Source: Bacilli bacterium (GTDB lineage Bacteria > Bacillota_I > Bacilli_A > RF39 > UBA660). From it: a DNA stretch of 14,943 bases. The translations under genes were made by a program, and so were the position numbers. The notes under the pieces were generated by a model, which saw only the letters and a list, made by a program, of their open reading frames with translations, ran no database searches and was not told the origin of the DNA. Each line of letters begins with the position of its first letter. Within the stretch, counting starts at the first letter, position 1. The stretch is taken from assembly GCA_017470045.1 (NCBI GenBank), contig JAFUFG010000055.1, positions 1-14,943 of the forward strand, read 5' to 3'. Below are positions 4,760-14,482 of this stretch, piece by piece.

Positions 4760-6742
4760 TTATTCCGTATCTGTTTCTTCGTTTGTCTCAACTTGTTTTT
4801 CAGAAGTCTCCGGAAGAGTGGTTTCTTCTTTGTTAGAAGTAGTTTCTTCTTCTTCCTCTTCTTCTTCCTCATTTTCTTCTACCACAGGTTTCTTTTTGTC
4901 TTTTGTTGTTTCTGATTGAGATAACGTTAATACTAAATTACCACTTAATTTATCGACACGTTTACCAGCAGGAAAACTTTGATTGATTACCGTTCCACCA
5001 GTTCCATTGAAGGTACAACGGATATTATATTTTAGACAAGTTGCGCTAGCTTGTGCTTGAGTATCTCCTGTAAAATCTGGAATTAAAGAATAATTACCAG
5101 TGTTTGTATAAGGACCATATCCAATTACTTCTTTTTCATATGGATCATTGATAGAGAAGTGGAACTCTTTAATATCTTGATGATCCGCTAACTCTAAGTT
5201 TTCTTTCATCGCTTGAATAATATCCTTACGACTATTTTTATTTGGAACATAATCCCATAATGTCATCTTGGCACGTTCATCATAAATCATTTGACCAGAA
5301 CCTTGTAGATATAAACGTTCAATATTAACAAGGTCTGCTTTATCGGTACTTAAGCTTTTTCTCATAATATCTTTCGCAATATTATAGAAAGATAAGATTT
5401 GCTTTGTAGTAAAGTTTGTATCCATACTATTTGAAATAGTATTTAAGATATTCATAAATGTTCCAACATCATCAATATCTTTTATTTTATCCATCATTGC
5501 TTTAATAATAACTTGTTGGTGATAGTTACGACCAAAGTCACCATCTGCCAATTGTTTACGATTTCTAGCGTATACTAGGGCATGTTCTCCATCTAATATC
5601 TGTTTTCCTGGTTGAACACAAATCTCTTGCATACGATTCGAATCATCTGTACATAATTCTTTTTCAACGTCAATTTCAACGCCACCTAAGGCATTTACTA
5701 ATTTAACAAGACCTTTAAAATTAATCTTAGCATAATAATCAATATTAACATCAAAATAGTTTTGAATTGTTTGAATCATACAGTCATTACCATAAGCAGC
5801 TGCATGAGTAATTTTATTTTCTGCTTTATCAGACCAACATGCGATTGGTACATAAGAGTCACGTGGAATACTTAACATCGTAGCATTTAATGTTTTTGGA
5901 TTAAATGTAATTAGAATTAATGTATCTCCATTCGCAACTGCATTCTTCGATAATACTTCATCCGTAGAATCAATTCCCATTAATAAAATAGTAAAAGGTT
6001 CACGGACATCTTTTCCAGAAGAAGCTACTTCAATCTTAGAAGTCTCTGCCTTCTTTAATTTCTCACTCTTCGATAAGATAACTTTTGTATCACTTTCAAT
6101 ATTTGCATATTCTGCCATGGTATCAAATAATTCAACATATCCTCCAGGAACAAAACAAGCATCAACATCTCCTGCATATAAGTCCACTACCATAGAAGTG
6201 AAATCACCATAAGAAACTAATTCATTTTCATCTTCTAACTTTTGTTCCTTCACCATATCCATTGGAATCTTGTAGCCCTCAATCGATTCTTCATCCTCTA
6301 AGATAGCAATCTTCATATCGAACATTTCATTTGGTTTTTCCACTTTACTATCTCTTGGAACAATCAACTTAGAAGTATAAGTAATATATTCTTTATTTAA
6401 ACCACTGATTTCTTTATATACATATTGAATTCCCATTCCAACGATTCCACAGATAAGAGAGTAGAATACCATGAATATTAGAATTCCTCGATACTTTTTA
6501 ATCTTCTTTACCTTTTTCTTTTTCGGATGTAAAATCCTACGAATTCGAAGGATTAAAAATAAATCCGTCAAGGCAAGTAATCCCATAACAATGTATCGAA
6601 TCATATCTTCGATACTACTTAATAGAGATAACTCATATATTGCGAAAACACTAGTAACTAGTGAAATAATTAATAATAAAACATATATTGGCCAAAATTT
6701 GGGTTTCTTCTGCATCATACCATCATCCATTTCTTCATTCAT
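4760..6742 (-). CDS. LytR-CpsA-Psr (LCP) family protein with PASTA-like C-terminus
   Basis: LCP enzymes transfer lipid-linked glycopolymers such as wall teichoic acid or capsule onto peptidoglycan outside the membrane. In this 660-residue protein I see three N-terminal helices (about 17-38, 48-67, 86-107) and an accessory domain resembling a half binding-protein fold (about 141-230). The LCP core (249-415) contains LLMGIDS, NGDT (Asp273), SIPRDS (Arg294), ARNRK (Arg393, Arg395) and DGDFGRNYHQQ (Arg405). The final Arg of the usual RxxRQ is His408, a position that I recall also varies in other LCP proteins. A PASTA-like domain follows (553-609, PDFTGDTQAQA...). The tail (611-660) is very rich in Glu, Thr and Lys. 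Cys302/321, 364/375 and 569/576 could form disulfides. GGAGG (6754-6750 on the minus strand) is 7 bases before ATG. The natural polymer substrate is not evident. Confidence 0.93.
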   Translation of the reverse strand: MNEEMDDGMMQKKPKFWPIYVLLLIISLVTSVFAIYELSLLSSIEDMIRYIVMGLLALTDLFLILRIRRILHPKKKKVKKIKKYRGILIFMVFYSLICGIVGMGIQYVYKEISGLNKEYITYTSKLIVPRDSKVEKPNEMFDMKIAILEDEESIEGYKIPMDMVKEQKLEDENELVSYGDFTSMVVDLYAGDVDACFVPGGYVELFDTMAEYANIESDTKVILSKSEKLKKAETSKIEVASSGKDVREPFTILLMGIDSTDEVLSKNAVANGDTLILITFNPKTLNATMLSIPRDSYVPIACWSDKAENKITHAAAYGNDCMIQTIQNYFDVNIDYYAKINFKGLVKLVNALGGVEIDVEKELCTDDSNRMQEICVQPGKQILDGEHALVYARNRKQLADGDFGRNYHQQVIIKAMMDKIKDIDDVGTFMNILNTISNSMDTNFTTKQILSFYNIAKDIMRKSLSTDKADLVNIERLYLQGSGQMIYDERAKMTLWDYVPNKNSRKDIIQAMKENLELADHQDIKEFHFSINDPYEKEVIGYGPYTNTGNYSLIPDFTGDTQAQASATCLKYNIRCTFNGTGGTVINQSFPAGKRVDKLSGNLVLTLSQSETTKDKKKPVVEENEEEEEEEEETTSNKEETTLPETSEKQVETNEETDTE

Positions 6743-6952: not shown

Positions 6953-9900
6953 TTGAAGAAAAAATTATTATTGTTAACAATACTGATCTCAGTATTTATG
7001 ATAAATCCAAAGAGTGTATCTGCATTAGGAGTCGATAATTATCGAAGTCGAGGAGTATGTGGAAATTTTGAAGTAGCAGGATTTCATTCCGATGGGGAGA
7101 TTGTTACAGTATATTGTAGAGATACGTTCCAAGATGCGATGAATGCAATGCGAGATAATGGAGCAGACGACCTAGCAATAATGACAAAAGTTAATGGTTC
7201 AACCAAAATTATTGGAGCAAACTTAGGTATTGTAGATTTAAATATAAACGGTAATACAACAGTAAATTATTATCGATATAGTAATATTACTGGTGTATAT
7301 ACTTATATGAATCATTCTAACTGGGGATCTGATGCTGCATTAATTCAAACAGAATATGCATCTAGAAATGGTTACGCAGGTTATTCTGCAAGAATAAGAA
7401 TCAGTGATTTTGATGGTTGGGTAGAGCAAGATAAATATGAAATACTTCCAGTCACTTGGGCAAAATCTACAAATAAATACATTGTATCAAATAGTGACAT
7501 TACTCATGTTTATACATACACACCCAAAAATACAAATTCTGGAAATGTAGCAAATACAATAGGTCCAAAACCAGAAATGTTAAATCCTGGAACATATTAT
7601 AGTTATGACGGACACTATTTCTATAATGACTTATATAAATTATTAAAGGACTATCGTAATAACAATTATAATAATTCTGTTAATAAAGATAAGCCTTATT
7701 ATAATTATTACCAATATTTATCCGTACATACAAAATCGAATTATTCAAGTTTAAATATCGATGAATATATTCGCAATAACTTAGGTTATGGAATGGATGT
7801 TTATGGAGACAAAGCAGAAAGCGGAACTTCTAGACTTTATGGTATGGGACAATTCTTATATTATGCTCAACAAAAATACGGAGTAAATGCTTTAATCACA
7901 TTATCTCATGGAATTAATGAATCAGGATATGGTAGAAGTAGAATAGCAGTAAATAAGAATAACGGATTTGGTCTTAATGCCGTAGATAGTAATCCATATG
8001 GAGATGCTTCTGTATATGGAACTTATGCTTCTTGTATTGAAGATTTTGCTCATAACTGGATGACTTGGGGATATGCCGAACCAGATGATGGAAGATATTT
8101 TGGTCCAGCATTTGGAAATAAGCACATTGGTATGAACGTAAAATATGCATCTGACCCATATTGGGGAGAAAATATGGTAAGCCATTATTATGCATTTGAT
8201 CGTGCCAAAGGTATGCAAGACTATAACTATTATCAATTAGGATTAGTAAATGAACCAGTAGCAGCAAGAGCTTCTGCTAGTAATTCAGCAAAAGAAGTGT
8301 ATACTTATCCAGAACGAGATGATGCCATTGTTATTGTTGGAGAAACAACAGGGGATGTAGTAAATGGATCCAATAAATGGTATGAAATTGTTACAGACCG
8401 TTCTGTTGATTCGAATTACAACGCTACTCCAAGAGATCAAGGATATAACTGGGCCAAAACGGTATTTGTACCAGCTTCAAAAGTTAGATTAATTAATACA
8501 CCAAAATCAGGTGCAGGTACTTATAAGTCACCTCAATCTGTTCCAAAATATCAAGATGCAGGTTATCAATATGACTTATTAACAACACAACAAGTTCATA
8601 GACCAAAGATTGGAATCACAATCCGTAAAACTGGTTATCATAGAGATGCTGCACTAAGCACATGGGCAGGATTATCTGCAGAAGCAAATCGATATTTATT
8701 AGTACATTCCATTGCTTATGATAAAAATGGGAATGCCGTATCTTATTATGTAACATCAGATTATAAATTCCAACAAAAGCATTGGGTAAAAGCAAGTGAT
8801 GTAGATATCGTAGATGGTGCAGTAGCAAAGATGGATATTGCTTACGATCCAAATATCTATATCATGGTAAACTCTACTACAAACTATAGTAGCAGTACAG
8901 AAATCAGTGGATTATACGATTACGCTTATACTCCAATCTTAGAAGAAAAGATAGTAGATGGTAAAAAATGGTACAAAGTTCCAGTAGATGTAGATGGAAC
9001 AAAAGCTCAGTATGGATGGATATTATCAAGTGCCCAATATGTATCTTGGGACATTAAAGGAAATATCAGTGCCTCTGCAGCACCAATTATTACTGCTAGT
9101 GATAAGACAGTAACACAAGGAATCGATTTTGATAAGATGGAAGGTGTTAGTGCCAAAGATTATCAAGGAAATGATATTACATCATCAATCACGATTAAAT
9201 CTTCTAATGTAAATTTAGATAAAGTTGGTACCTATGCAATTACTTATCAAGTAACAAGTTCCAATAATAGAACTGGTACTAAGACTATAAAAGTAACCGT
9301 AAAAGCAAATGAAAAGCCAGTAATTACAGCTAAAGATATCGAAGTAGAGCAAAATGGAACATTAACTCATGACTATAGTGCTACAGACAAAGAAGATGGA
9401 GATTTAACAGAAAATGTAACCATCGATACTTCAAAAATAGATATCACAAAAGTAGGTACTTATGAATGTACTTATAGTGTAAAAGATAGTTATAATCAAG
9501 AAACAAAGAAAACAGTAAATGTCTATGTATTAAGTTCCTCATCTAGTGTACGTTATTCTACACATGTAGAAAGTTATGGATGGCTAAGGACTCAAGAAAA
9601 TGGAAACATGTCTGGAACATCTCATGAATCGAAACGATTAGAAGCAATCAAGATTGCTTTAGCAAATATGGATTACGCTGGTTCTATTGAATACCGTACT
9701 CATATTCAAGATATCGGTTGGGAAAGTGAATGGAAGAAAGATAATGAACAATCTGGAACCGATCACCAATCAAAACGATTAGAAGCTATTGAAATGCGTC
9801 TAACTGGCGAAGTAGCAGAACATTATGATTTATATTATAGAGTTCACGCACAAGATGTTGGATGGATGAATTGGGCTAAGAATGGAGAAATGGCAGGTAC

Positions 9901-10471
9901 TGCTGGTTATAGTAGAAGACTAGAAGCTATTGAAATTATCTTAGTTTCAAAAGGAGAACAACCTCCAGTAGTAGAATACAAAAACGATAAATCATTTATC
10001 ATGCAAGCAGTATCTTACACAACTCATGTACAAGATATTGGATGGCAAAATTATGTAAATGATGGTGATCAAGCCGGAACGGATCATCAATCCAAACGAT
10101 TAGAAGCAATTAAGATTAAATTCAGTAAGCAAAAATATACCGGAAATATTGAATATCGTACTCATATCCAAGATATTGGATGGGAAAAAGAATATAAAGC
10201 AAATGATGCAATTTCTGGAACTTCTCATCAAAGTAAACGTCTAGAAGCAATTCAAATTCGTCTTACTGGACAAATGGCAGAAAACTATGATGTTTATTAT
10301 AGAGTACATGCTCAAGAATTTGGCTGGATGGGTTGGGCTAAGAACGGAGAAGAAGCAGGAACTGCACATTATTCTTACCGATTAGAAGCAATCCAAATTG
10401 TTCTAATACCAAAAGGACACTTAGGTCCAAGCGATAATCTAGCTGCTTTTAAAGATAAAAATGCACAATAA
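6953..10471 (+). CDS. Secreted multimodular N-acetylglucosaminidase (peptidoglycan hydrolase) with ChW repeats
   Basis: This 1,172-residue exported autolysin-like protein has a signal peptide (residues 1-24, cleavage likely after SVSA) and an unassigned module (about 25-200). A glucosaminidase domain follows (about 295-425). Glu323 in GINESGYG is the probable catalytic acid, and NKNNGFGL follows as in GH73-type enzymes that cut the GlcNAc-MurNAc bond. Next come SH3-like segments (roughly 428-515, 545-645, 650-698), likely for wall binding, then two Ig-like DUF5011-type domains (about 710-785 and 788-862). Six clostridial hydrophobic-with-conserved-W (ChW) repeats (866-1153) end the protein, each with a GW core and RLEAI. 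Start is TTG: AAGGTGAT ends 5 bases before it and the signal peptide begins there. It is divergent from the LCP gene. Full-length size and modules look intact. It probably acts in growth, separation or adhesion; which of these is not visible. Confidence 0.92.
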   Translation: MKKKLLLLTILISVFMINPKSVSALGVDNYRSRGVCGNFEVAGFHSDGEIVTVYCRDTFQDAMNAMRDNGADDLAIMTKVNGSTKIIGANLGIVDLNINGNTTVNYYRYSNITGVYTYMNHSNWGSDAALIQTEYASRNGYAGYSARIRISDFDGWVEQDKYEILPVTWAKSTNKYIVSNSDITHVYTYTPKNTNSGNVANTIGPKPEMLNPGTYYSYDGHYFYNDLYKLLKDYRNNNYNNSVNKDKPYYNYYQYLSVHTKSNYSSLNIDEYIRNNLGYGMDVYGDKAESGTSRLYGMGQFLYYAQQKYGVNALITLSHGINESGYGRSRIAVNKNNGFGLNAVDSNPYGDASVYGTYASCIEDFAHNWMTWGYAEPDDGRYFGPAFGNKHIGMNVKYASDPYWGENMVSHYYAFDRAKGMQDYNYYQLGLVNEPVAARASASNSAKEVYTYPERDDAIVIVGETTGDVVNGSNKWYEIVTDRSVDSNYNATPRDQGYNWAKTVFVPASKVRLINTPKSGAGTYKSPQSVPKYQDAGYQYDLLTTQQVHRPKIGITIRKTGYHRDAALSTWAGLSAEANRYLLVHSIAYDKNGNAVSYYVTSDYKFQQKHWVKASDVDIVDGAVAKMDIAYDPNIYIMVNSTTNYSSSTEISGLYDYAYTPILEEKIVDGKKWYKVPVDVDGTKAQYGWILSSAQYVSWDIKGNISASAAPIITASDKTVTQGIDFDKMEGVSAKDYQGNDITSSITIKSSNVNLDKVGTYAITYQVTSSNNRTGTKTIKVTVKANEKPVITAKDIEVEQNGTLTHDYSATDKEDGDLTENVTIDTSKIDITKVGTYECTYSVKDSYNQETKKTVNVYVLSSSSSVRYSTHVESYGWLRTQENGNMSGTSHESKRLEAIKIALANMDYAGSIEYRTHIQDIGWESEWKKDNEQSGTDHQSKRLEAIEMRLTGEVAEHYDLYYRVHAQDVGWMNWAKNGEMAGTAGYSRRLEAIEIILVSKGEQPPVVEYKNDKSFIMQAVSYTTHVQDIGWQNYVNDGDQAGTDHQSKRLEAIKIKFSKQKYTGNIEYRTHIQDIGWEKEYKANDAISGTSHQSKRLEAIQIRLTGQMAENYDVYYRVHAQEFGWMGWAKNGEEAGTAHYSYRLEAIQIVLIPKGHLGPSDNLAAFKDKNAQ
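9548..10411 (+). repeat. Six ChW repeats arranged as a duplicated triplet
   Basis: Each unit of about 45 codons contains T/V-H-x-Q/E-x-x-GW and ends with RLEAI. Triplet one spans about 9548-9955 and triplet two about 10010-10411, 154 codons apart start to start. Unit 1 is most like 4 (THVESYGW/THVQDIGW), 2 like 5 (THIQDIGWE in both) and 3 like 6 (VHAQDVGWM/VHAQEFGWM). A short Pro/Lys linker separates the triplets. Confidence 0.85.
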
Positions 10472-10500
10472 AAAATACACTTAATCAAGTGTATTTTTTT
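10471..10500. terminator. Bidirectional terminator between glucosaminidase and PASTA genes
   Basis: AAAAATACACTT (10471-10482) pairs with AAGTGTATTTTT (10487-10498) around loop AATC. A T-run continues to 10501 on the plus strand and an A/T-rich flank lies on the other side. It overlaps the stop of one gene and abuts the stop of the other. Confidence 0.88.
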
Positions 10501-12017
10501 TAGTCTTCTTCATCTGGATTATTCGTACTTAAGTTTAATGTAATCGTAGTTCCCTCTGTAACATCACTACCAGCACTAATGGATTGACTTAATACGATAT
10601 CTTTATCACCAGTATCATAAGTATAAACATAAACAACATTTAATCCAGCATCTTTCATCGTAGTAGTTGCCTTTTGTTTTGTCATACCAACAACATCAGG
10701 AACACCTTTTTTCTTACCATCACTAACTTTAACAATAATGGCATCATTATTCTTAATCGTTTCTCCTTTTTTATAAGAGTAACTAATAACTTTTCCAACA
10801 TCTACTTTATCATTGTATTCATGTTGAATACGATAAGAAATATGATATTTCTCTGCCCAAGTAGTAAATTCATCAAGATCTTTAAAAGACTTCATCTTTA
10901 AAGAACCTTTTGATAATACAATTTCGATAATTGTTCCTTGAGCAACTTTTTCACCTTTACCATAATTTGTCTTAACAACTTTATTTTTCTCAATCTTCTC
11001 ATCATATTGATCCGTAAAAGATAATTTTAATTTATTCTTAATAATCCAAGAAGTAATTTGATTTGTTGTCATATTTGTAAGATCAGGAACTGTTATTTCT
11101 GGTCCATTACTAATCACTAAAGTAACTTTATCATTATGAATATTGATTCGGTCCCCAGCTTTTTGCTTTTGACTCATAACTTGTCCTTGTTTAATCGTTT
11201 TACTAAATTCTCTTTCAAACTCACATTCAATTCCATATTGTTTACAATAGAATTCAGCTTCAAACTTCGTATGCTTAGTTAGATCCTTTAATACGATTTC
11301 ATCATAATTACGACTTTCTCCATAAGAGAAGGTAACTTTTAATTCATCACTTCTTCTCATTGTACCAGTCTTACTTTGTTCCATAACCGTATTTGGTAAG
11401 TATTCACTACTAACAAATTCAACACTAACATTACTTAAATAATTATCATCTACAAATTGAATAAATTTTTCATCATCCCAAGATTCCATTTTTGGAATAA
11501 TGACTTCTTTATTTGGATCCGTTCCATCACTAATAGAAATCTTCATATGGTCCTCATCTTCAATACGAGTACCAGCTTTCTTATCTTGTGTAATTACATG
11601 ATACTCTGGAACCATATCACTATATTCATAGATTGTTTCAACTTCAATATTATGATCCGTTGCCCATTCCATAACATCCGTAATACTTTTACTAGAAAAA
11701 TCTAGATAAGTCTTATTCTTATCCAATTGAATAAAACCTAATGTATGTAGAGAAGTAAGGATATAAAAGATAATAAAAATACCTTCTCCAACATAAATAA
11801 GAGTCTTATTCATATGCTTATTCGTAATCTCTAATGCGACAAATAAAATACTAAAGATTACTAATAAAAACCTACTAATTAGCGTATAAATTGGAGTCGT
11901 ATTACCTACAAATAAAGAGATTAGAAAAGAAGCAATACTAACTACCAATAAAATAAAAGATACAATTGTTACACCGATATGTTCTTGATCGAATATATCT
12001 GCAAATTCTTTTTTCAT
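10500..12017 (-). CDS. Kinase-less membrane protein with six PASTA-like repeats
   Basis: PASTA domains bind peptidoglycan fragments or help penicillin-binding proteins and Ser/Thr kinases sense the wall. This 505-residue protein has a short cytoplasmic end, three membrane helices (about 16-37, 43-63, 72-94) and six PASTA-like units outside (about 103-165, 171-234, 238-306, 307-371, 373-434, 437-498). Several units show the pattern 'VPDL/VVGMT...A...G..V........V..Q....G..V..G..I.L..S.G'; the first two are the most divergent. There is no kinase or transpeptidase domain. It ends in an acidic NPDEED tail. Unit 3 has Cys258 and Cys265. The start is the ATG at 12017: AGGATGG lies 5 bases upstream, while an ATG 42 bases further up (12059) lies upstream of the likely -10 box. 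It probably senses or scaffolds at the wall. Confidence 0.87.
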   Translation of the reverse strand: MKKEFADIFDQEHIGVTIVSFILLVVSIASFLISLFVGNTTPIYTLISRFLLVIFSILFVALEITNKHMNKTLIYVGEGIFIIFYILTSLHTLGFIQLDKNKTYLDFSSKSITDVMEWATDHNIEVETIYEYSDMVPEYHVITQDKKAGTRIEDEDHMKISISDGTDPNKEVIIPKMESWDDEKFIQFVDDNYLSNVSVEFVSSEYLPNTVMEQSKTGTMRRSDELKVTFSYGESRNYDEIVLKDLTKHTKFEAEFYCKQYGIECEFEREFSKTIKQGQVMSQKQKAGDRINIHNDKVTLVISNGPEITVPDLTNMTTNQITSWIIKNKLKLSFTDQYDEKIEKNKVVKTNYGKGEKVAQGTIIEIVLSKGSLKMKSFKDLDEFTTWAEKYHISYRIQHEYNDKVDVGKVISYSYKKGETIKNNDAIIVKVSDGKKKGVPDVVGMTKQKATTTMKDAGLNVVYVYTYDTGDKDIVLSQSISAGSDVTEGTTITLNLSTNNPDEED

Positions 12018-12038
12018 ATTCACCATCCTAACAATTTC

Positions 12039-12044
12039 ATTATA
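12039..12044 (-). promoter_or_regulatory. -10 box of the PASTA gene
   Basis: TATAAT on the minus strand (12044-12039). The hexamer 17 bases upstream is TTTTCT, a poor -35. The start would be about 12032, leaving a leader of about 15 bases to the ATG at 12017. This box rules out the longer reading frame beginning at 12059. Confidence 0.55.
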
Positions 12045-12069
12045 TAATAGAATTACCAATAAGAAAATA

Positions 12070-12097: not shown

Positions 12098-13342
12098 ATG
12101 GAAAAAACAATTCAAAAAAACATGTCATTATACATAAAAATATGGATTCTAATACAACCGTTAATCGATTTAATAACGGGAGTATTTGTTCATAATAATA
12201 TAAACTTTACAATAGGTATTCTAATTCGAGTAATTGCATTATTATGTCTAATGGTAATTACAGTATTTATCTACAAAAAGAAGAGTGCTTTATATGTTTA
12301 TTTAGCCTTATCAATCTATTGTATTCTATATTTAATTGGAATCATTCTTTATAAAGATGGAGGATTATTTAAAGAGTTACAAGGATTATTAAAAGTAATC
12401 TATTTTCCAGTATTACTATATTCTCTATATTGTATAAAAGATGATATAAAGATTGAAAGTAATACGTTATATACTACCTTTATTATTTATATTTTATGTA
12501 TTTTTATACCAACTATTTTTGATATTGGATATAAAACTTACGAAGTAACAAAGAGTGGTTCTTTAGGATTCTTTAATTCTGCAAATGAAGTAGGAGGAAT
12601 TATCTCCATATTAACTCCAATCTTATTTATCAAATTAAAAGAAAAAAAACATCTATTCTTACAAATTGCCTTTTTAGGAATTTATTTAGTAACAATATTA
12701 AATATGGGTACTAAGACTCCTTTATTATCATTATTGATTACAATAGCAGGAGTATTTGTCTATCTAATATTAGATTCTATCAAAAAGAAAAATTATAAGT
12801 TATTAACTGGTTTTATTACCACCGTAATTGTTCTAGTAACAGCAGTAATTGTATTACTTCCAAAGACCAATTTTTATAAGAATATTCGCGTACACTTAGA
12901 CTATTTAGGAGTTGATCATATAACCGATGTATTCCAAGAATTTAATCTTGTTGACCACTTTATCTTTAGTCAAAGATTAACATTCTTAAGTGATGAAAAA
13001 TATTTATATGATCAATGTGGAATCTATCAAAAAATAGTAGGTAGAGGATACTTAGATAACGGATTAGATACCAAGATGATTGAGATGGATTACTTCGATA
13101 TCTATTTCCATCACGGACCATTAGGTTTCTTATTAGTATTTGGAATCTATGGTTATGTACTATGGAATTTAATCAAGAGTAGAGGAAAATACTCCTTTGA
13201 ACGATTAATGATTTATATTTCTTCTTTCTTAGTACTAATCTTATCCTTATTTAGTGGACACATTATTATAGCTCCTAGTGTAAACATTATTGTGGTAAGT
13301 GTATTCTTATTAATATCTCAAAAAAATACAAAAAAAGCGTAA
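12098..13342 (+). CDS. O-antigen ligase/polymerase family membrane protein
   Basis: This 414-residue protein has about eleven or twelve membrane helices and one large outer loop (about residues 258-340). The family joins or polymerises lipid-linked oligosaccharides on the outer face of the membrane (WaaL, Wzy; TuaE-like in Gram-positives). Supporting marks are FFNSANEVGG (Asn160-Glu164) before a helix, NMGTKTPLLS in the next loop, SQRL with Arg293, and YFHHG with His338/His339 near the end of the big loop. The last two match the conserved Arg and His seen as catalytic in ligases. Length is normal and the frame is intact. AGGTGAT ends 3 bases before ATG. It is transcribed alone, back to back with the PASTA gene. 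Ligase and polymerase cannot be told apart by sequence alone. Confidence 0.82.
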   Translation: MEKTIQKNMSLYIKIWILIQPLIDLITGVFVHNNINFTIGILIRVIALLCLMVITVFIYKKKSALYVYLALSIYCILYLIGIILYKDGGLFKELQGLLKVIYFPVLLYSLYCIKDDIKIESNTLYTTFIIYILCIFIPTIFDIGYKTYEVTKSGSLGFFNSANEVGGIISILTPILFIKLKEKKHLFLQIAFLGIYLVTILNMGTKTPLLSLLITIAGVFVYLILDSIKKKNYKLLTGFITTVIVLVTAVIVLLPKTNFYKNIRVHLDYLGVDHITDVFQEFNLVDHFIFSQRLTFLSDEKYLYDQCGIYQKIVGRGYLDNGLDTKMIEMDYFDIYFHHGPLGFLLVFGIYGYVLWNLIKSRGKYSFERLMIYISSFLVLILSLFSGHIIIAPSVNIIVVSVFLLISQKNTKKA

Positions 13343-13363
13343 AAAAAAAGTACGCTTTTTTTA
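13331..13363 (+). terminator. Terminator of the O-antigen ligase-like gene
   Basis: AAAAAAGCGTA (13331-13341) pairs with TACGCTTTTTT (13351-13361) around an A-rich 9-base loop, and T's continue to 13362. The stop codon TAA is at 13340-13342, inside the structure. Confidence 0.85.
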
Positions 13364-13410: not shown

Positions 13411-13424
13411 ATGGAGGTAATAAG

Positions 13425-14450
13425 TTGAATATATTATTGGAAAAAAAGATTAATTATAAAGATCGTTATCTATTAAGTGATTACGAGAAAGGGGAAATGT
13501 TTCCGATTATATCAGACACCATGTTTCATGTAATGCTAAACAATGAGTCTAGAAAACAATATGCCGCTTATTTATTATCATTAGTTTTAAAAGAGAATTA
13601 TCAAGAAATCTATAACAATATTACCTTTTCAAAAACAGAACTTGATAAAGATAAATTTCATACATCTAAGAAAACAGTAGATCTAGTCTGTAAAATTAAA
13701 GGGAAAGTTTATAATATTGAGATGAATAATAATCCAGATCTTTCTTCGCTAGAAAGAAATATCGACTACGCAAATCAACTATATGCTAGTAGTAGAAAAA
13801 GAGGAAAGAAATATCAATTTACTCCGATTGTTCAGATCAATCTCAATAATTTTAGTTTTGAAGGCAATGATAAAGTAATGGATGATTTCTATCTAAAAGG
13901 AGAAGAGGATTTAATTCTTACGGATAAAATTAGAATTATTTATTTGTATCTTCCAAATATTCGAAGAAAATATTATAATAAAGAAAAGTTATCCGATATA
14001 GATAAGTTATTATTAATCTTTAATGAAAAAGATTCAAAAAAATTATCGGAATTGTATCGAGGTGATAGTATTATGAACGATTATCGTGAAGAGGCATTAG
14101 ATGCCAGTGAAGATGATGAAATTCTTGGATTATATGACAAAGAAAAAGAAGAGGAAATGCTTCGAATCGCTAGAGAAGAAGAATATCGAGTACGTTGGAA
14201 AAAAGAGGGACTGGAAGAAGGAAGAGAAGAGGGCAGATTAAAAGGATTAGAAGAAGGTAGATCAGAAGGTAGATCAGAAGGTAGAGCAGAAGGTAGAGCA
14301 GAAGGTAGAGCAGAAGGTAGAGCAGAAGGAAAAAAAGAGGCCATCAAAGAAATGGTAAAAGGTTTGTTTCAAAACCATATACCAATAGAGATAATTGCTA
14401 ATTCTACAAATTTATCCACTGAAGATGTGGAAAAAATAATAAAAGAGTAA
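13425..14450 (+). CDS. Rpn family PD-(D/E)XK nuclease (PDDEXK family transposase-like), full-length RpnL
   Basis: Rpn proteins (recombination-promoting nucleases, often labelled 'PD-(D/E)XK nuclease family transposase') are DNA endonucleases. Published work shows that full-length Rpn is a toxin, active in phage defence, and is blocked by its own separately translated C-terminal part. In this 341-residue protein the nuclease half (about 25-180) starts with SDTMFHVMLNN. It has TVDL with Asp86 and IEMN with Glu99 and Asn101, the core D...ExN (most relatives have ExQ). The C-terminal half (about 217-341) is a charged helix with tandem EGRS/EGRA and ends in a small helical segment (IPIEIIANSTNLSTEDVEKIIKE cut as IPIEIIA...DVEKIIKE). 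Start is TTG with GGAGG (13413-13417) 7 bases before it. It stands alone between terminators, with no insertion-sequence ends visible, so it is not evidently mobile. Confidence 0.88.
   Translation: MNILLEKKINYKDRYLLSDYEKGEMFPIISDTMFHVMLNNESRKQYAAYLLSLVLKENYQEIYNNITFSKTELDKDKFHTSKKTVDLVCKIKGKVYNIEMNNNPDLSSLERNIDYANQLYASSRKRGKKYQFTPIVQINLNNFSFEGNDKVMDDFYLKGEEDLILTDKIRIIYLYLPNIRRKYYNKEKLSDIDKLLLIFNEKDSKKLSELYRGDSIMNDYREEALDASEDDEILGLYDKEKEEEMLRIAREEEYRVRWKKEGLEEGREEGRLKGLEEGRSEGRSEGRAEGRAEGRAEGRAEGKKEAIKEMVKGLFQNHIPIEIIANSTNLSTEDVEKIIKE
14059..14066 (+). promoter_or_regulatory. Internal ribosome binding site within the Rpn gene
   Basis: GAGGTGAT is an 8-base match to the complement of the 16S rRNA 3' end. 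It lies 6 bases before an in-frame ATG at 14073 (GAGG ends 10 bases before it). It is the longest such match I see in front of any start in this window, and it lies inside coding sequence (codons for R-G-D). Confidence 0.7.
14073..14450 (+). CDS. Predicted intragenic RpnS antitoxin (C-terminal part of Rpn)
   Basis: This is an in-frame internal product of 125 residues, beginning MNDYREEALDAS at codon 217 of the full-length gene. It starts at ATG, whereas the long form starts at TTG, so it could be made in excess, as an antitoxin should be. It lacks the nuclease residues. It holds an acidic helix, the EGRS/EGRA run (residues 61-84 of the short form) and the final helical segment. In characterised Rpn loci the short form dimerises through a helix with four-residue repeats and inhibits the long form. 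Here that role is inferred from the ribosome site, the start and the repeats. A perfect TATAAT at 13974-13979 with a poor -35 might also give a short transcript, which I regard as weak. Confidence 0.6.
   Translation: MNDYREEALDASEDDEILGLYDKEKEEEMLRIAREEEYRVRWKKEGLEEGREEGRLKGLEEGRSEGRSEGRAEGRAEGRAEGRAEGKKEAIKEMVKGLFQNHIPIEIIANSTNLSTEDVEKIIKE
14253..14324 (+). repeat. Six tandem 12-base units encoding EGRS/EGRA
   Basis: Two copies of GAAGGTAGATCA are followed by four identical copies of GAAGGTAGAGCA, differing at one base. All are in frame (Glu-Gly-Arg-Ser, then Glu-Gly-Arg-Ala). Degenerate units precede (EGREEGRLKGLEEGR) and follow. Because the unit is 12 bases, slippage adds or removes four residues without a frameshift. 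Confidence 0.95.
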
Positions 14451-14482
14451 AGAAACCGCGTAAATGTGGTTTCTCTTTTTTT
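14451..14482 (+). terminator. Terminator of the Rpn gene
   Basis: AGAAACCGC (14451-14459) pairs with GTGGTTTCT (14466-14474, one G-T pair) around a 6-base loop, followed by seven T's at 14476-14482. It starts immediately after the TAA stop. Confidence 0.88.

Follow-up and report, generated by a model that had tools for sequence, protein, structure and literature searches.

A conserved internal ribosome-binding site and start codon in an rpn nuclease gene of Bacilli point to a probable RpnS-like short form

Does the rpn nuclease gene of a Bacilli bacterium encode one protein, or does it also hold the gene for its own antitoxin? In E. coli, RpnA-E were described as intragenic pairs in which a long form (RpnL) and a short form (RpnS) are made from one gene, and it was proposed in the same work that co-expression of intragenic Rpn antitoxins is broadly conserved (Zhong et al., PMC10327210). 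The gene considered here occupies positions 13425..14450 on the plus strand of a 14,943-nucleotide stretch of contig JAFUFG010000055.1 (assembly GCA_017470045.1), referred to below as the window. Its long form, of 341 aa in the list of open reading frames (ORFs), begins with TTG and is preceded by the ribosome-binding site GGAGGT at 13413..13418, with a Shine-Dalgarno (SD) energy of -10.7; SD strength is given throughout as the energy of the duplex with the 16S tail, in kcal/mol. An initial annotation had proposed that a short antitoxin is translated from within this gene. We consider it quite probable that this gene is an Rpn-type intragenic toxin-antitoxin system, in which one mRNA gives both RpnL and RpnS.

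The long protein matched TIGR01784 at 79.9 bits, against a curated cut-off of 52.1, which places it in the Rpn family (COG5464/TIGR01784). The window protein and its relative P0001 were below the threshold of Pfam PF12784, and five scanned relatives were above it. As had been claimed, the nuclease core includes D86 and E99: in 66 aligned sequences the predicted PD-(D/E)XK-type active-site stretch (13680..13721) has the putative active-site residues E99 and N101 invariant and D86 in at least 90%, and M217 is likewise present in at least 90%. In an AlphaFold2 model (mean pLDDT 89.7) a nuclease-like part extends to about residue 200 and is followed by short helices, a helix at 215-229, one long helix at 231-316 that bears the repeats, and two short end helices; the helix at 215-229 opens at about the internal start described below, after the nuclease core. 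In a Foldseek search against the PDB nothing was found at an E of 0.001 or better, the best match for the modelled N-terminal part being McrBC (E=0.046), with every listed Z below 6.

The putative internal ribosome-binding site, GAGGTGAT, lies at 14059..14066 and is followed by the six bases AGTATT and by an in-frame ATG (14073-14075) at codon 217; these coordinates, given in the initial annotation, were confirmed in the sequence and in the ORF list. Initiation here would yield a short form of 125 aa (14073..14450). The SD energy at codon 217, -12.8, is the best among 141 in-frame internal ATG, GTG and TTG codons in the window's eight complete genes, the two runners-up reaching -7.8 each, and it is stronger than that of each of the eight ORFs' own first starts (+1.3 to -11.3), which were assigned mechanically from the ORF list and are in some cases uncertain. 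In a control of the method on E. coli K-12, which took in rpnA, B, C and E and left out rpnD, the start at codon 241-244 ranked first in three of the four genes and second in rpnA. Since Arg-Gly-Asp in AT-rich codons tends to resemble an SD sequence, much of the strength at codon 217 is to be expected. The single site, given its protein, is only modestly unusual, and the weight therefore falls on the homologues.

The homologues comprised 122 distinct ORFs taken from 130 fetched loci and the window, nearly all of the loci belonging to genomes in the order or family, metagenome-assembled genomes titled Firmicutes, Bacilli or Bacillales. Residues 190-240 were covered at 100 bits or more in 108 of the ORFs (14 were dropped), and these fell into 78 clusters at 80% identity with one representative each, the window's included. 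Codons were then re-drawn synonymously with the proteins held fixed, and 232 positions (30-261) were scanned. The mean raw SD energy upstream of codon 217 was -8.46, the strongest of all positions, and the excess over the synonymous null was largest at codons 218 (-1.35, t -5.9) and 217 (-1.23, t -5.2), the largest value outside 215-221 being -0.61. SD strength exceeded the synonymous mean in 55 of the 78 clusters (p=1.9e-4). The result held when 50 clusters at 50% identity were used (codon 217 excess -1.09, t -4.7), and with 28 clusters codon 217 ranked third of 232 (t -2.5); because relatedness among clusters is incompletely removed, the t values serve as guides only. In the smallest groupings of distant sequences, taken up below, the excess weakened.

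Independently of the synonymous null, start codon and SD sequence appear to be kept together. Where the codon-217 column is ATG, 40 of 50 clusters have an SD of -7 or better, compared with 39 of 630 other in-frame ATGs. Among clusters lacking Gly213, a start preceded by an SD of this strength is nevertheless present in 20 of 37, and the SD is then spelled by other residues, such as AGG GAG GAT (R-E-D), GAG GAG GAT (E-E-D) and AAG GAG GAA (K-E-E), among others. When the column holds Val, the codon is GTG in five of six cases, against a background of 108 of 1074 Val codons (p=5.7e-5). In the 12 clusters that lack a start codon at the column or one codon to either side the median SD was -3.1, as opposed to -10.3 in the 66 with one (p=3.1e-6), and all 12 have another in-frame start no more than 20 codons away with an SD of -7.7 or better. 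Overall, a start within two codons with an SD of -7.5 or better was found in 52 of the 78 clusters; at comparison positions, sampled at every fifth codon, the mean was 0.6% and the maximum 7.8%. The homologues carry a conserved putative in-frame internal start with a ribosome-binding site, with limits at a few distant clusters.

Short ORFs that stand alone provide another view of the same codon. The set comprised 27 distinct ORFs of 60-175 aa that contain the C-terminal domain and have both ends inside the fetched locus. In 13 of these the best start lies no more than six residues from the equivalent of codon 217, all with an SD of -6 or better; five (L035, L084, L141, L143 and L148) have no earlier start codon in the ORF, and eight adjoin the downstream side of a longer rpn frame (L035, L084, L101, L122, L141, two in L142, and L143). 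At L035 and L084 a full-length gene is immediately followed, or overlapped at its end, by the short ORF, which starts with AAAAGGAG...ATG or AAGGAG...ATG at the corresponding codon. Some of the remaining members of the 13 still contain pieces of the nuclease region, and these may represent truncated genes instead of copies. Solo C-terminal fragments lying at the ends of contigs (for example G013 C10, C15 and C51; G003 C7, C46 and C59) were discounted as evidence, because they were read as assembly breaks at multi-copy genes.

The C-terminal part itself resembles E. coli RpnS. A profile of 26 sequences matched PDB 7TH0, E. coli RpnA-S, with an E of 4.5e-6, and the RpnA-S-like region (14331..14447) ends in the model in a helix-turn-helix-like helix pair (321-328 and 332-340); a separate model of the short form had a mean pLDDT of 87.4. 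Ten 4-residue units (LEEG...RAEG) form a 12-bp tandem array at 14211..14330 within the long helix, of which TRF reported 14252-14329 (period 12, 98% match). The number of units, counted by eye, is 10 in the window, seven in P0140 and three in P0001, both close relatives, and the first long helix of the predicted RpnS bears 4-residue repeats whose number varies among relatives. Taken together, the TIGR01784 match, the RpnA-S homology, the repeat variation, the conservation of SD and start, and the short ORFs support the proposal that this is an Rpn gene in which a conserved internal start serves the C-terminal portion, RpnS.

Like E. coli RpnA-E as described in PMC10327210, the window locus combines a gene for a predicted PD-(D/E)XK nuclease with a putative in-frame internal start for the C-terminal domain, and shares the 4-residue repeats of variable number and a C-terminal sequence homologous to 7TH0. 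In E. coli the internal start of rpnA, M244, was confirmed by mutation (PMC10327210), and in the Gram-positive C. difficile an RpnS was found to be made from rpn and to disappear when the predicted ribosome site and start were mutated (PMC10327210). Small proteins are separately encoded beside rpnE and rpnC (PMC10327210), and in the E. coli K-12 record ypaA, marked as a pseudogene, adjoins rpnE; like rpnE-ypaA, relatives of the window gene have small-protein copies beside full-length genes. A second protein arising from an internal in-frame start is also known from Synechocystis Cas10d/Cas11d, cited in PMC10327210 as an internal start of complementary function; there, in contrast to the product proposed for the window locus, the second product is a partner subunit and a CRISPR protein, and not an inhibitor. 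Since intragenic Rpn antitoxins are already published and their broad conservation was already proposed, we regard the locus as a well-supported further RpnL/RpnS case with a shifted start, and not as a new kind. Among the matches listed in the open-licence literature, none reported intragenic Rpn antitoxins beyond Zhong et al. (PMC10327210).

The shift of the start is one of several observations that weigh against this interpretation. E. coli RpnS starts 8-20 residues before the repeats (PMC10327210), whereas the window start lies 46 residues before them. The claim that the locus follows exactly the plan reported from other bacteria is for this reason overstated. An internal transcription start was reported for E. 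coli rpn (PMC10327210); upstream of 14059 in the window gene a consensus scan gave a single weak plus-strand promoter match (13550-13578). In the minimum-energy RNA fold GGUGAU is base-paired to AUUAUC a short way downstream, which would cover the SD; the centroid fold leaves it unpaired, and the stability of the start region is unremarkable (z -0.34). Synonymous re-draws of the peptide LYRGDSI were as strong as -12.8 in 2.4% of 5000 cases. The SD was no stronger than the synonymous mean in 23 of the 78 clusters, and 23 of the 78 lack a start with an SD of -7 or better within one codon; with 15 very distant clusters the codon-217 excess fell to rank 10 (t=-2.5), and with 11 to rank 41 (t=-0.8), where the signal is lost. 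Two of the 12 start-less clusters, L107 and L128, retain a strong SD at the column. In G471, a more distant genome, several rpn paralogues (L183, L189, L193, L196, L199 and L202) had no strong start in the linker, and the internal start is for this reason not universal. Finally, 14 of the 27 short ORFs depart from the pattern, with no best start in the six residues to either side of the codon-217 equivalent. Of these, four (L049, L163, L170 and L190) open, as judged by eye, at the same SD-plus-Met motif, the profile alignment being shifted, and three are tandem copies in L208 with a strong SD start (-14.0) about 15 residues ahead of the repeats; in the other seven (L006, L140, L149, L164, L171, L185 and L203) the starts differ or are weak, or a start codon is missing from the examined range.

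It might be argued that the SD-like sequence is a mere by-product of a Gly-Asp-x-Ile-Met motif at the domain boundary, written in AT-rich codons, and that no internal initiation takes place. This motif is widespread in the family and includes the conserved M217, and the synonymous null for the window peptide averages -9.1 already; the GGTGAT core does follow partly from the conserved Gly-Asp motif, and the Gly-Asp...Met motif accounts for part of the SD peak at codon 217. Yet a protein motif alone would leave unexplained that the synonymous excess peaks at codons 217-218, that the SD is often kept with other residues, that GTG is chosen for Val, that start and SD are mostly lost jointly, and that short ORFs open at this start, and we find such a by-product distinctly unlikely. 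The position of the site at the domain boundary, where the helix at 215-229 comes after the nuclease core, could be invoked for a programmed ribosome pause that aids folding between the nuclease and the C-terminal helix. Pausing would not require a start codon at a set spacing, yet start and SD tend to vanish together, Val at the column is GTG in five of six, and short ORFs take the site as their own start; a pausing function is accordingly very improbable.

A different objection accepts that the short form is made and takes it to be a structural or regulatory partner of RpnL, either in a larger assembly or as a DNA-binding autorepressor acting through the helix-turn-helix-like end, and not an antitoxin. 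We judge such a role for RpnS unlikely. In the intragenic toxin-antitoxin reading, which we prefer, one mRNA would give RpnL, with its PD-(D/E)XK nuclease domain, long repeat-bearing helix and small helical end domain, and also RpnS, its C-terminal part, initiated at 14073. By analogy with E. coli, RpnS would act as an antitoxin, pairing with RpnL through the shared repeat helix and blocking DNA cleavage, and stress or phage infection may upset the complex and free this activity in a defensive role.

The initial annotation had further suggested that a TTG start for the long form and an ATG for the short would favour antitoxin excess. This combination is present in the window gene, and it does not extend to the family, in which the long-form start with the best SD is ATG in 55 of 68 cases, TTG in seven and GTG in six. 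As for the position of the short start, the window's short form is 125 aa and residue 292 of its model, not 217, aligns with E. coli residue 244. M246, which is nearer the repeats and would fit the 8-20-residue rule, was rejected as a start, being outside the window's ten best internal starts and, at 50% clustering, without synonymous excess (-0.10, t -0.4). Elsewhere in the phylum sample, at L187 (by eye) and L208, starts lie about 12-15 residues before the repeats, and in L184 a strong start lies far further upstream, so that the distance seems to vary by lineage. In L208 (genome G471) three standalone C-terminal copies lie in tandem behind an rpn gene on the minus strand, and each has the same GGAGGTGG...ATG.

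In L049 rpn is split into two frames, with the internal SD and ATG of the C-terminal ORF intact, and the locus, flanked by ORFs resembling by eye ribosomal proteins and ObgE, is possibly an antitoxin remnant kept after loss of the nuclease. The long proteins of L004, L081, L088 and P0007 have the C-terminal domain or repeat block duplicated in frame, perhaps by fusion of a downstream RpnS copy. Genomes G224, G303 and G290 hold up to 34 C-terminal-domain matches per genome (G224), which suggests a strong expansion, part of which may be contig ends. In E. coli an extra repeat on one partner breaks long/short pairing in RpnC (PMC10327210). A tentative and rather doubtful extension would be that in this lineage standalone RpnS copies, each equipped with a ribosome site at the same start, are shed from rpn genes, so that several long toxins in a genome face a larger pool of free antitoxin. 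Repeat numbers would then act as a matching code that settles which toxin each antitoxin silences, in place of isolated pairs, and the longer N-terminal stretch of RpnS (MxEYxxEAxxxSx...YDKE) would make an additional contact to the nuclease domain that E. coli RpnS lacks.

Directly after the stop codon an intrinsic-terminator-like hairpin with a T run was found in a sequence scan (14451..14474, plus strand). A second hairpin, AAAAAGCGTA/TACGCTTTTT with a T run, was seen by eye at 13332-13360, between an O-antigen-ligase-like gene and rpn; it is absent from the scan's list because its loop is longer than the scan permits. With hairpins on either side, rpn seems insulated both upstream and downstream. 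On the minus strand opposite the repeats (14081-14347) lies a mechanical 88-aa ORF rich in SALP repeats, which is not likely to be a gene and can be seen as a shadow of the EGR array. The neighbouring genes scanned resemble cell-envelope and sugar-transfer genes. They include a LytR-CpsA-Psr protein with one PASTA domain and a Phosphonate-bd match at cut-off (4760-6742), a large protein with a glucosaminidase domain, Ig-like domains and six ChW repeats that has a TTG start and a strong ribosome site (6953-10471), and a PASTA-repeat protein without a kinase match in Pfam (10500-12059), whose PD-T4-6 matches probably reflect the PASTA repeats and not defence. The rpn protein had no PADLOC match at an E of 0.01, phage and plasmid records gave no match, and the seven pattern matches in viral contigs included no relative. 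Among small-genome relatives, matches were found in 125 of 291 and 144 of 288 genomes (two overlapping samples), with genome sizes of about 0.8-1.8 million bases among the matches listed, and a phylum sample searched with the family model gave matches in seven of 149 genomes.

Genes within genes are difficult to detect, as annotation retains a single product for each gene. The present case shows a signature at the nucleotide level, in which SD and start codon are held while residues change and short copies open at the same codon. This signature supports the published claim of widespread intragenic Rpn antitoxins and extends it to a group of small-genome relatives, and the variable distance between internal start and repeats bears on which part of RpnS would block the nuclease.
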